A stretch of 34,160 bases of DNA from a virus, in IMG/VR virus record IMGVR_UViG_3300045936_000120, positions 1 through 34,160 of that record; one strand, given 5' to 3'. Position numbers and translations under genes: made by a program. Of the stretch, positions 2,550-19,564 are shown one piece after another; position 1 is the stretch's first letter, and each line of letters begins with the position of its first letter. The notes under the pieces were generated by a model. The model was given only the letters and a program-made list of their open reading frames with translations, ran no database searches and was not told where the DNA came from.

Positions 2550-2807
2550 CTATGAGGGTGGCTCGCTGTCGCCTTTTTTGTTTTCGGGCTCGGCGTCTAC
2601 CCATGCCATCGCGCATTCATGGCATTTTTGCCGCGCGGGCGTCTCATCGCTCTCGTGGACGCCAAGAATCCAGACCGACCAATGTCCGCATTCGAGAGTC
2701 AATTGGTTTGAGCAGATATTGTACGGCTCACTCGCCGTAACCGCCCGGTCGAATTCGCCGGCGTCGAGCTTGCGCCGGGCTTCGAGGATGCGTTCGGCGC
2801 GGGTCAT
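2550..2807 (-). CDS. Small Cys/His protein, putative zinc-binding
   Basis: An 85-residue leftward protein. LTLECGHWSVWIL followed by CHECAMAWV gives a C-x-H ... C-x-x-C ligand set, the same pattern as in the proteins at 12398 and 24682 (V-x-x-x-CGH ... C-x-x-C). The N-terminus is a short charged helix (MTRAERILEARRKLDAGEFD) and the C-terminus is Glu/Lys-rich. Its ATG (2805-2807) overlaps the stop of the upstream gene, so the two are translationally coupled. Zinc binding is inferred from cysteine spacing; the function is unknown. Confidence 0.6.
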   Translation of the reverse strand: MTRAERILEARRKLDAGEFDRAVTASEPYNICSNQLTLECGHWSVWILGVHESDETPARQKCHECAMAWVDAEPENKKGDSEPPS

Positions 2808-3085
2808 TTGTGGACCAGGCGTGTAGTGATCCGCTCATTCAGGCGGGTTTCCATGTTCGCCATATCCGTTCGCACGCTGGATATTTCAATCTTCAGGCGG
2901 CTTTCCATGCTCGCCATATCCGTTCGCGCGTTGGATATTTCAATTTTCAGGCGGCTTTCCATACTTTCCAGTTCTGCCTTGAATCGGCGGCCTTCCGTAA
3001 TCAGAGCCCACAATACCGGGCCGGTAATCGTGGTCAGGAATAGCCCGCCAAACGCTAATATCAACTTCCAGGATTCCGCGTTCAT
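2804..3085 (-). CDS. Membrane-anchored coiled-coil protein, holin-like topology
   Basis: A 93-residue protein if started at the ATG that overlaps the upstream stop codon (ATGA); a GTG four codons upstream is also open. Residues 5-30 form one hydrophobic membrane segment (WKLILAFGGLFLTTITGPVL). The rest is a coiled coil made of 18-residue repeats (SMESRLKIEIS-N/S-x-RTDMA) encoded by 54-bp direct repeats at 2840-2947. One membrane helix with a long charged cytoplasmic or periplasmic coil resembles some holins and small phage membrane proteins, and the product at 16018-16263 has the same architecture. No endolysin is recognised nearby, so lysis is only a suggestion. Confidence 0.65.
   Translation of the reverse strand: MNAESWKLILAFGGLFLTTITGPVLWALITEGRRFKAELESMESRLKIEISNARTDMASMESRLKIEISSVRTDMANMETRLNERITTRLVHK
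2840..2962. repeat. 54-bp tandem repeat inside the coiled-coil gene
   Basis: Units 2840-2893 and 2894-2947 are close copies (CAGGCGG-TTTCCATG ... GATATTTCAAT), followed by a third partial unit. 54 bp equals 18 codons, so gains or losses of units lengthen the coil by five helical turns without a frameshift. Confidence 0.9.
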
Positions 3086-3225
3086 TTCTTGCCCCACCGC
3101 TTAGCGGCCGCCTGAGCCGCTATCTCTTTGCGCCGCTCAGGATTCATCTGAGCGAATCCCTTCGGAACTTTCTTTTTCCCGCCGAGCCGGCCTAACGCCA
3201 CTGCAGCCGGATTTTTCTTTGCCAT
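3082..3225 (-). CDS. Short basic protein (AAVALGRLGGKK type)
   Basis: A 47-residue protein. It begins MAKKNPAAVALGRLGGKKK, continues through a helix (MNPERRKEIAAQAAAKRW) and ends GKK. Such small basic proteins with the pattern NPAAVALGR-x-GG-K ... M-(N/T)PE-x-R-x-EIA-x-x-A-x-x-RW are common in phage and environmental genomes; their role is unknown, possibly nucleic-acid binding. A related motif (DPAAVALGKRR ... MTPDEALEFHRAGAKA) occurs in the gene at 10184-10678. This is the first gene of the leftward cassette and its TGA overlaps the ATG of the next gene. Confidence 0.7.
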   Translation of the reverse strand: MAKKNPAAVALGRLGGKKKVPKGFAQMNPERRKEIAAQAAAKRWGKK

Positions 3226-4691: not shown

Positions 4692-5509
4692 GCGCGGCCG
4701 TTATCACGATCGGCGAAGCGGCGGAAGAGCGGAACATCCGCCCCGCCGCCGCCTCAATCCCTGGCGAGGTTCTATCGCCCAGTCAGGCGAGCGCGTATCT
4801 TTCGTGTGCTGCGCGTTGGTATTTCAAGTACATGGCCGGGCTTCCCGATCCGGCATCCGGCGGCGCGGTCCGCGGCAAGGCGGTGCATTCGATGATCGCC
4901 TACTGGATGGCGGCGAAGATGGACGGCGTAGAGCTTGAATCCGCCGGCATCGCCGACGCCTGGGATCACGCCTGGGACGCCGCGGCCGAGGGCGCGGAGT
5001 TTAACGCGACCGACGATGTTGACGATCTGAAGGGTAGCGGGCTCCGTTTGACTCAGAAGTATCTTGCCGAAGCCGGGCCGGGGATCGCGCCTGCGGCCGT
5101 CGAGGTTCCGGTGACCGGCGTGATCGCGGGCGTTCCGGTGCGCGGCATCGTCGATATCGTTGATACTTCCAGGCGCGTCATTGACATCAAGACGAAGGCG
5201 CGCAAAGCATCCGAGGTCGCGCCGGATCACGCCTTGCAGCTCGCTACTTACACGCAGCTCATGCCGCGGGCATCCGGCGAAGCGCGAATCGATCTGCTTG
5301 TTTCGACCAAAGAGCCGCAATTGATCCAGATCGACCATACGCCAGGCGCGGCGGGCCGCAAGCTCGCCGAGCGGCTGTATCCGATGGTTGCCGAGGGCAT
5401 CGCGGGCGGCCTCTATTTGCCGAATCGCTCGGCGACAACGTGCAGCCGCAGGTGGTGCGCCTACTGGCGCGAGTGCGAGCAGGAATTTGGCGGCCAGGTG
5501 GCCGCTTAA
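4688..5509 (+). CDS. PD-(D/E)XK nuclease of the RecB/Cas4 type with Fe-S cysteines
   Basis: A 273-residue protein. The PSQASAYLSCAARWYFKY box (C40), the GKAVH motif (H67), the GIVDIVD strand (D156), VIDIKTK (D167 and K169 region), QLATYTQ (motif with Gln/Tyr) and the C-terminal triplet C252, C257, C263 (TTCSRRWCAYWREC) are in the order found in AddB, RecB-like and Cas4 exonucleases, where one N-terminal and three C-terminal cysteines hold a 4Fe-4S cluster. It would cut or resect DNA during phage recombination or replication. It ends the overlapping early run and has no CRISPR neighbour. Fold assignment is strong; substrate polarity is unknown. Confidence 0.85.
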   Translation: MSAAVITIGEAAEERNIRPAAASIPGEVLSPSQASAYLSCAARWYFKYMAGLPDPASGGAVRGKAVHSMIAYWMAAKMDGVELESAGIADAWDHAWDAAAEGAEFNATDDVDDLKGSGLRLTQKYLAEAGPGIAPAAVEVPVTGVIAGVPVRGIVDIVDTSRRVIDIKTKARKASEVAPDHALQLATYTQLMPRASGEARIDLLVSTKEPQLIQIDHTPGAAGRKLAERLYPMVAEGIAGGLYLPNRSATTCSRRWCAYWRECEQEFGGQVAA

Positions 5510-7901: not shown

Positions 7902-7930
7902 AGTCAGCGATCAGCGGGTCAGCAATCAGC
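7902..7930. repeat. Heptamer run, F4, beside the leftward J-like gene
   Basis: Forward units with one eight-base unit (GGGTCAGC). The end of the leftward gene at 7926 reaches into it. Confidence 0.9.
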
Positions 7931-10214: not shown

Positions 10215-10678
10215 GGAGCTATCATAGCGGATCGCAGCCGCTCGAGCGCTTCATCGGACGCCGAGTCAAGCAACCGCGCGAGCTCGGATACATCGGGTGG
10301 TGGGGCAGGTGGCTCGCCCGGTGAGCCTGGCGGCTGATCGCTGACCGCTGACGGCTTCTGCCATGCCGGCCGCATGCGCCGCGTCCGCCAGGCGAGCATG
10401 CCGGACATGCGGCGCTCGAGCGGCGAGCGCTTCCGGTTTGAGGCCTGCACGGCCTTCGCGCCGGCGCGATGGAACTCGAGCGCCTCATCCGGCGTCATCT
10501 TCGCGATGCGCCGTTTGCCGAGCGCGACCGCCGCGGGATCCTTGCAGGATCCCGGGCGATCAGCGTTCAGCTTACAGCTTTCAGCTTCGGACGTTGGCTG
10601 ATTGCTGAATGCTGACCGCTGACCGCTCTTTTCCACAGCACGATGATACATGCTCGAAAACTGAATTTCTAGTGTCAT
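10184..10678 (-). CDS. Basic protein with AAVALG motif, interrupted by in-frame arrays
   Basis: About 164 residues from ATG 10678; the frame is open further, to 10774, and the true start could even lie after the array. The folded part is DPAAVALGKRRIAKMTPDEA, then LEFHRAGAKAVQASNRKR, a relative of the 47-residue protein at 3082-3225. Before it lies a whole translated heptamer array (10558-10627), in which the TGA expected in this frame is TGT (Cys). A second run of heptamers (10333-10356) encodes PSAVSDQP in a Pro-rich linker before a C-terminal acidic helix (ELARLLDSASDEALERLRSA). Function unknown. Confidence 0.55.
   Translation of the reverse strand: MTLEIQFSSMYHRAVEKSGQRSAFSNQPTSEAESCKLNADRPGSCKDPAAVALGKRRIAKMTPDEALEFHRAGAKAVQASNRKRSPLERRMSGMLAWRTRRMRPAWQKPSAVSDQPPGSPGEPPAPPPDVSELARLLDSASDEALERLRSAMIAPWNSVTNSVR
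10333..10356. repeat. Heptamer run, R3 on the plus strand, coding on minus
   Basis: Three GCTGANN units plus GCT. For the minus-strand gene this is the stop-free orientation. Confidence 0.9.
10534..10554. repeat. Perfect hairpin beside the array
   Basis: CGGGATCC and GGATCCCG form an eight-base-pair stem with the loop TTGCA, next to the array at 10558 and inside the leftward gene. Confidence 0.6.
10558..10627. repeat. Heptamer array, F4 / R4, translated on the minus strand
   Basis: Plus-strand forward units 10558-10585 include TTACAGC in place of a TCAGC unit; reverse units 10597-10627. Read leftward, that base change turns TGA into TGT in the frame of the gene at 10184-10678. Confidence 0.95.
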
Positions 10679-12026: not shown

Positions 12027-12154
12027 GCGATCAGCTTTCAGCAATCAGCGATCAGCCATCGTGGAACCTTCCGGTCAACGTCGACCCGTGCTCAGTCACG
12101 CAAATCGGCGTGCGCGTCGACCGGCGCGCGTGGAAACGCGGGGCTGATCGCTGA
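12023..12154 (+). CDS. Possible 43-residue protein inside an array loop
   Basis: GTG at 12023 overlaps the previous stop. The N-terminal 13 residues come from the forward arm (SDQLSAISDQPS), the middle (WNLPVNVDPCSVTQIGVRVD) is unique sequence, and the stop TGA belongs to the reverse arm. The middle looks like normal protein, so a small gene captured within an array, or a fragment of one, is possible. Weakly supported. Confidence 0.35.
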   Translation: MSDQLSAISDQPSWNLPVNVDPCSVTQIGVRVDRRAWKRGADR

Positions 12155-12173
12155 ATGCTGACTGCTGATCGCT
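12029..12173. repeat. Heptamer array, F4 / R4, with an 86-bp loop
   Basis: Forward units 12029-12056 and reverse units 12143-12173. The reverse arm provides both the stop at 12154 and the ATG at 12155. Confidence 0.95.
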
Positions 12174-12373
12174 CCAACGAAATCGACCGCCTGCGCGCCG
12201 AGCAGCGCCGTGCCGCCGCCGATGCGCGGCAAGCGGCAACCGAGCGCGAGTATTGCATGTTGGGCGTGAACGATTATCTGATCGAGGAATTGATTGTGCT
12301 GTACTGGAAAGAAGCAATTAGCAATCAGCTATCAGCGGTCAGCCAGGACGCGAAGCTGAATGCTGAAAGCTGA
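12155..12373 (+). CDS. Small coiled-coil protein with array-derived ends
   Basis: A 72-residue protein whose ATG and first residues (MLTADRS) are encoded by reverse heptamers and whose last residues (ISNQLSAVS ... KLNAES) and stop come from the next array. The genuine core is about 40 residues, a charged helix (NEIDRLRAEQRRAAADARQA) followed by a hydrophobic segment (YLIEELIVLYW). Function unknown. Confidence 0.5.
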   Translation: MLTADRSNEIDRLRAEQRRAAADARQAATEREYCMLGVNDYLIEELIVLYWKEAISNQLSAVSQDAKLNAES

Positions 12374-12385
12374 CCGCTGAATGCT
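12316..12385. repeat. Heptamer array, F4 / R4
   Basis: Forward units 12316-12343 (first TTAGC variant), spacer CAGGACGCGAA, reverse units 12355-12385. Confidence 0.95.
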
Positions 12386-18686: not shown

Positions 18687-19564
18687 TGGCTAGCTATCAG
18701 CAATCAGCGATCAGCGATCAGCCAAACGCAGAGCTGAAAGCTGACAAGCTGAAAGCTGATCGCTTCGCTACCCAATTCGCGCGCTTCCTCGAGCGCGAAG
18801 AGTCGCGATGGGTCCGGCCGGCCGCCGTCGTCCTCGCGCGGGAAGGGGCGAGGGCGGCTGAGGCGTACCAGCAGGGCGGCGAGGGCGCGGCGCTTAATTC
18901 CGTCGATGAACGGGAGTGGGAACGCTACCTCGAGCGTGTCTGGCTCTCTGTCGTGCCGCGGGCCGGCGAGTTTACGACGGATCAGATTGGCGGTCAGCAA
19001 TCAGCGATCAGCGGTCAGCTAAACGCAAGGCTGAATGCTGACAAGCTGAAAGCTGATAGCTTCGTCAAAGAGCCGCCCGATCCGTTTCTTCAGGCTGCGA
19101 TCAATTGGCTCAAGTTGAACATGGCCGAGCGGGTGCAGGGCATTACGCAAACCTCGAAAGAGGAAATCGGCAATCAGATCCGCATCGGCGTATCGAAGGG
19201 CGAAGGCATCGCCGACATTGCGGCGCGGATCGTGAAGCACAGGCGGTCGATCACGCCCGAGCGGGCGCAGACGATCGCGAGAACGGAAGTTCACGCGGCG
19301 GCGAACTACGGATCGCTCGTCGCGGCCGAGCTGGTAACGGTTCCGATGGAAAAAATCTGGATCGCGCGTGCGGATGCGCGAGATTCGCATAGGGCGGCGA
19401 GCGGTCAACGGCGGGCGCTCGATAGCTCGTTCATCGTGGGCGGTTACCGGTTGATGCACCCGGGCGATTCGTCGTTCGGGGCGCCGGCGGGGTTGGTTGT
19501 GAATTGCCGCTGCGTGATGTCGTTTGAGGTGAAGCGGAGGGAGCGGCGCAGAAGGGCTGCGTAG
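18686..19564 (+). CDS. Mu F-like minor head protein with two translated heptamer arrays
   Basis: 292 residues, start fixed by TGATG overlap. The C-terminal domain (ITPERAQTIARTEVHAAANY, KIWIARADARDSHRAASGQR, GYRLMHPGDSSFGAPAGLVV, NCRCVM) is the phage head morphogenesis domain of Mu gpF and SPP1 gp7, which enters the prohead with the portal. Two arrays are translated in frame: residues 3-27 (YQQSAISDQ ... LKADKLKADRF) and about 103-126 (QQSAISGQ ... LNADKLKADSF). Each reverse arm has one eight-base unit (GCTGACAA) that shifts phase; without the extra A both would read AGC-TGA. The protein therefore survives two insertions that should truncate it. Confidence 0.9.
   Translation: MASYQQSAISDQPNAELKADKLKADRFATQFARFLEREESRWVRPAAVVLAREGARAAEAYQQGGEGAALNSVDEREWERYLERVWLSVVPRAGEFTTDQIGGQQSAISGQLNARLNADKLKADSFVKEPPDPFLQAAINWLKLNMAERVQGITQTSKEEIGNQIRIGVSKGEGIADIAARIVKHRRSITPERAQTIARTEVHAAANYGSLVAAELVTVPMEKIWIARADARDSHRAASGQRRALDSSFIVGGYRLMHPGDSSFGAPAGLVVNCRCVMSFEVKRRERRRRAA
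18694..18764. repeat. Translated heptamer array, F4 / R4 with +1 unit
   Basis: Forward 18694-18721, spacer CCAAACGCAGA, reverse 18733-18764. The second reverse unit is GCTGACAA. Confidence 0.95.
18992..19061. repeat. Translated heptamer array, F4 / R4 with +1 unit
   Basis: Forward 18992-19019, spacer TAAACGCAAG, reverse 19030-19061. The second reverse unit is again GCTGACAA, followed by the same GCTGAAA. Confidence 0.95.

Follow-up and report, generated by a model that had tools for sequence, protein, structure and literature searches.

Rickettsia palindromic elements (RPEs), approximately 150 bp long, are found in frame within unrelated genes and persist there as translated peptides (Ogata et al. 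2000, 2002, reviewed in PMC10969869). The TAACTGA direct heptamer repeats of Beggiatoaceae, Cyanobacteria and Bacteroidetes carry stops in all frames of one strand and leave the other strand open; they occur at gene ends, and inside genes they are encountered almost only in the open orientation (MacGregor 2015, PMC4679880). Enterobacterial RU/ERIC-like small mobile sequences with ORFs are MITE-like and reside inside genes, where the peptide is maintained (PMC2759123). Here we describe an array of inverted heptamers in a small phage gene, which, judging from the ortholog comparison and the state of its reading frame, is very probably translated as part of the protein.

The window, i.e., the whole stretch of DNA analysed here, comes from IMG/VR; it is a contig of 34 kb from a tailed phage and carries terminase, portal and capsid genes together with a head morphogenesis gene. 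It contains 61 arrays of TCAGCNN or GCTGANN, amounting to 254 units, with the core changed in five of them. A typical array has four units, and most arrays are paired into inverted arms. The exact 4+4 form was found 10 times in the window and 0 times in shuffles and is thus not expected by chance, while the density of arms (63 in 34 kb) is far above that of the bacterial genomes checked. As follows from codon logic, the TCAGC direction cannot form a stop in any frame, while in the GCTGA direction TGA reaches each frame within three units. Therefore, a gene crossing a complete element must cross a stop unless its GCTGA arm is altered.

Arrays also touch other genes of the window. Eight ORFs, taken from a hand-picked list, terminate at a TGA provided by a GCTGA arm (1207, 6214, 7926, 11706, 23103, 25635, 27204 and 31891), the arrays at their ends being ready-made stop codons; one of the eight codes for a DNA methyltransferase (PHROG match) and another for a tail terminator. 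Window gene 27842 has its ATG at an array edge. At matching positions of the window and related phages (12143-12168 and 12325-12380 versus L007 552-800), the TCAGC/GCTGA cores are mostly conserved and the two spacer bases vary, as might arise from constraint on the core or from exchange of units. Separately, in the minus-strand ORF 2804-3097, a 54-bp tandem repeat (2838-2962) encodes MESRLKIEISxxRTDMA as a recurring segment.

Table 1. Positions of the small leftward gene, its arrays and the head-gene arrays in the window.
Feature	Position	Strand	Remarks
Gene for a small basic helical protein, 155 aa	10184..10651	-	Best-supported start ATG 10651; ortholog in L167/L171
Alternative upstream extension, nine codons, from ATG 10678	10652..10678	-	Start of the sequence-only reading; open frame; no counterpart in the ortholog, where a stop interrupts the frame
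In-frame insert, 87 nt / 29 codons, SGQRSAFSNQPTSEAESCKLNADRPGSCK	10541..10627	-	Relative to the array-free ortholog (alignment with L171)
TCAGCNN arm in gene direction, four units	10597..10622	-	Stop impossible in all frames (codon logic); GCTGA type on the + strand
GCTGANN arm in gene direction, four units	10560..10585	-	TCAGC type on the + strand, third unit ACAGC
GCTGTAA unit	10572..10578	-	Sole unit in which a TGA would come in frame; AGC TGT, Cys at 10576-10574
Second array of the gene, single-arm TCAGC, three units	10333..10351	-	Stop-free orientation (SAVSDQP)
First head-gene array, N-terminal	18697..18759	+	8-nt spacing opens the GCTGA arm
Second head-gene array, internal	18994..19056	+	Missing from three orthologs; 8-nt spacing opens the GCTGA arm

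The sequence-only reading placed the array in the reading frame of the leftward gene and took GCTGTAA, giving Cys, for the only in-frame TGA position; both statements proved exact (Table 1). On the minus strand, the stop-free arm is translated first (GQRSAFSNQ), followed by EAESCKLNAD, which is coded by the units GCTGAAA, GCTGTAA, GCTGAAC and GCTGATC. A consensus core in the second unit would make codon 25 (counted from ATG 10651) the sole premature in-frame stop, the TGAs of the remaining three units being out of frame. The T of GCTGTAA, a site known from one contig, breaks one hairpin pair, and the other arm has no compensating change. As to the MITE criteria, the arms are inverted, the insert edges share at most AAG, and no transposase is linked. 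A palindrome, GGATCC-TTGCA-GGATCC (10538-10557), directly follows the array within the insert. The gene product had no match among Pfam or PHROG families; its structure model, from a shallow alignment, shows low pLDDT for residues 1-24 and a conserved helix from residue 39.

No relatives of the window protein turned up in a direct search, and the one clear full-length ortholog was reached through the terminase neighbourhood. It comes from a related phage (L167/L171) with a terminase 71% identical to that of the window; its 27 kb L167 record contains zero arrays. The ortholog lies in the same place and on the same strand, upstream of the terminase, is 43% identical over most of the protein, and has a similar codon-position GC content. 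It starts with MAREKNPAAVEMGKRR (also MAREKNPAAVEMGKRRQAKM), and three codons before this start there is an in-frame TAA; a shorter related protein in L036 begins with MVARKRKDPAAVSLG. The window protein reads MYHRAVEK, then 29 array-encoded residues, then DPAAVALGKRR (DPAAVALGKRRIAKM), which sets the insert boundaries relative to the ortholog between MYHRAVEK and DPAAV. A search with the L171 protein returned only itself, and a search by the Zn-ribbon neighbour yielded no useful syntenic locus. In the phage database, the core domain matched Caulobacter phages only marginally, and these matches did not fall on an annotated gene of that direction; we rejected them.

Since no clear Shine-Dalgarno sequence precedes 10651, 10678 or 10498, the choice of the start rests on homology; a promoter and terminator scan gave nothing to decide between the starts. 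The first ATG/GTG/TTG past the array, at 10498 (M of KMTPDE, residue 52), lies within the conserved domain, and translation therefore almost certainly starts upstream of the array. Thus, the view of the sequence-only reading that the gene begins before the array holds, while its choice of 10678 gives way to ATG 10651, for which the array-free ortholog provides the best support; both precede the array. Translation from downstream of the array, which that reading had named as the finding that would speak against it, is likewise not what the comparison with L167/L171 points to.

It might still be supposed that translation begins after the array, at ATG 10498, that the array forms a hairpin in an untranslated leader and that TGT arose by chance substitution. 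We consider this unlikely. The array does form a strong hairpin (-45 kcal/mol, z -4.3), and about 1% of units deviate anyway. Moreover, the head gene of the related phage L047 appears to start inside an array (AATGCTGA), past an intact stop-bearing arm, which makes such a leader conceivable in principle; for the small leftward gene, the ortholog comparison speaks against it. A start at 10498 would delete PAAVALGKRR, conserved as PAAVxxGKRR in L171 and L036, together with residues 39-50, predicted to form the domain's first helix, and an arm-frame is open by chance in only about 0.26% of cases. In L047 itself (4960-5000), the upstream ATG of the head gene reads AGG, and the likely start is an ATG within the array (GAATGCTGATT).

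The head gene of the window, whose product matches the Mu gpF-like head morphogenesis profile phrog_2468 (E 6.7e-40), offers another solution to the same problem. As the sequence-only reading had remarked, the route differs: a substitution opens the small leftward gene, while both head-gene GCTGA arms (18733-18759 and 19030-19056) are opened by an 8-nt spacing, GCTGACAA. The internal array is missing from the head-gene orthologs of L047, L007 and L167, in which the flanks align, so it represents dispensable sequence; the residues encoded by it (102-129) have low pLDDT in a model built from a shallow alignment. A full element also lies in frame (QRTAISSQEFNSLIADKLIAD) in an ORF of the unrelated phage L187 (6604-7122, minus strand), and it too is opened by the 8-nt-spacing route; this ORF has no family match.

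Such open arms are rare. Among the 63 GCTGA-direction arms of the window, four are open in some frame. All three that lie inside genes (one in the small leftward gene, two in the head gene) are open exactly in the frame of the gene, and only one of the remaining 60 (7904-7930) is open in any frame. Among 451 arms taken from other viral and bacterial loci, three arm-frames are open, and long ORFs contain none of them. Fisher tests of genic versus other arms give p values of 1e-4 (window) and 2e-6 (pooled). These counts use a gene list picked by hand from ORFs, and two of the three genic arms are perhaps not independent, as they belong to one gene and have the same solution; array-independent homology supports the genes, so that little is left of the circularity of considering only open ORFs. 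All further gene-internal arms in the window are in the stop-free orientation. Of the 84 single substitutions possible in such an arm, eight would open the frame of the small leftward gene, and the background of deviation at other loci is 18/1932 units and 8/1481 spacings.

We also considered whether stop-killing variants are generally genic. In viral contigs, they mostly are not: arms with one stop removed or with an 8-nt spacing lie mostly outside convincing genes in other viruses. A variant alone is therefore no proof, and it could predate insertion; the weight comes from where it lies, in the single in-frame unit of a gene supported by homology.

Taken together, the observed sequence and frame, the ortholog comparison and the rarity of open arms suggest the following scenario, which we hold to be probable. 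An inverted heptamer element (four TCAGCNN, a loop, four GCTGANN) would have entered the small phage gene after codon 8, adding a length divisible by three. With TGT in place of the lone in-frame TGA, ribosomes starting from ATG 10651 (or 10678) would read through, and the product would bear a 29-residue, probably unstructured N-terminal insert ahead of the conserved helical domain. The altered copy would persist since truncating copies in needed genes get lost, i.e., through a purifying filter. We infer insertion as the direction of change, and TGT may have arisen before or after it. The stop-free orientation of the other genic arms, the eight ORFs ending in arrays and the dispensable, low-confidence segments form the pattern that a filter against truncating insertions would leave.

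The idea that the array is expressed as protein thus gains good support from the ortholog start, the in-frame opening and the rarity of open arms. The accompanying claim of real selection for read-through stands only in part: read-through reflects at least purifying selection on the gene hosting the array, while we see no sign that the array peptide is favoured, and a useful function of it is unsupported. That the peptide has acquired a role, say as a flexible linker or a segment for binding, and is now under positive or specific purifying selection, seems to us quite improbable; in-frame arrays do persist in two genes and in the ORF of L187, but array-less orthologs exist and the array segments are probably disordered, being of low confidence in the structure models. 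Least probable of all is that the gene is dead or the ORF spurious, with a coincidentally open frame, for although it has no family match and one full ortholog, L167 keeps it in the same place and frame with the identity and codon-position GC content given above.

The locus shows how a repeat with a stop in every frame can still enter coding sequence, and one phage gives two different routes to an open frame, substitution and a change in spacing. It also supplies an internal control: open frames coincide with genes that require them and are nearly absent elsewhere, and an otherwise unannotated ORF thereby becomes credible.

The inverted 4+4 element was also found in MAGs of Acidobacteriota, Planctomycetota, Bacteroidales, Nitrospirota, Cyanobacteria and others (genome loci L048-L127 and more); in the 20 genomes checked, array matches numbered roughly 10 to 1250 per genome. 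Searching the literature by repeat sequence, we found no description of the inverted TCAGCNN family, and searches by repeat class gave only analogues; the wider family of bacterial MAGs and phages thus appears undescribed in the literature searched. It is tempting, if doubtful, to go further and suppose that these arrays are a mobile, fast-diversifying family of phages and many bacterial phyla, from which this phage domesticated stop-free copies as protein segments in its head and small basic-protein genes.

How, then, does the array relate to the described systems? From the enterobacterial RU/ERIC-like sequences it differs clearly, since those are 103-168 bp long, unrelated in sequence and not built of heptamers. 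With RPEs it shares a palindromic element in frame within a gene whose orthologs lack one. However, going by their description, RPEs are set apart by their length of ~150 bp, as opposed to 87 nt of TCAGCNN/GCTGANN heptamers, and they encode an open peptide, whereas the second arm of the phage array has stops in all frames, so that the repeat must change to open the reading frame. With TAACTGA repeats the array has in common the seven-base unit and the strand rule on stops (LSVISYQ there, SAISDQ-like here), and the phage arrays likewise occur at the ends of genes and, within them, mostly in the open orientation. Their unit is fixed and direct, whereas in the phage arrays two variable bases follow a TCAGC core, the arms are inverted and comprise about four units each, and three stop-bearing arms would be read through. 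Overall, the phage array resembles RPEs and TAACTGA repeats in the way it would work, while by sequence and architecture it is a member of neither.
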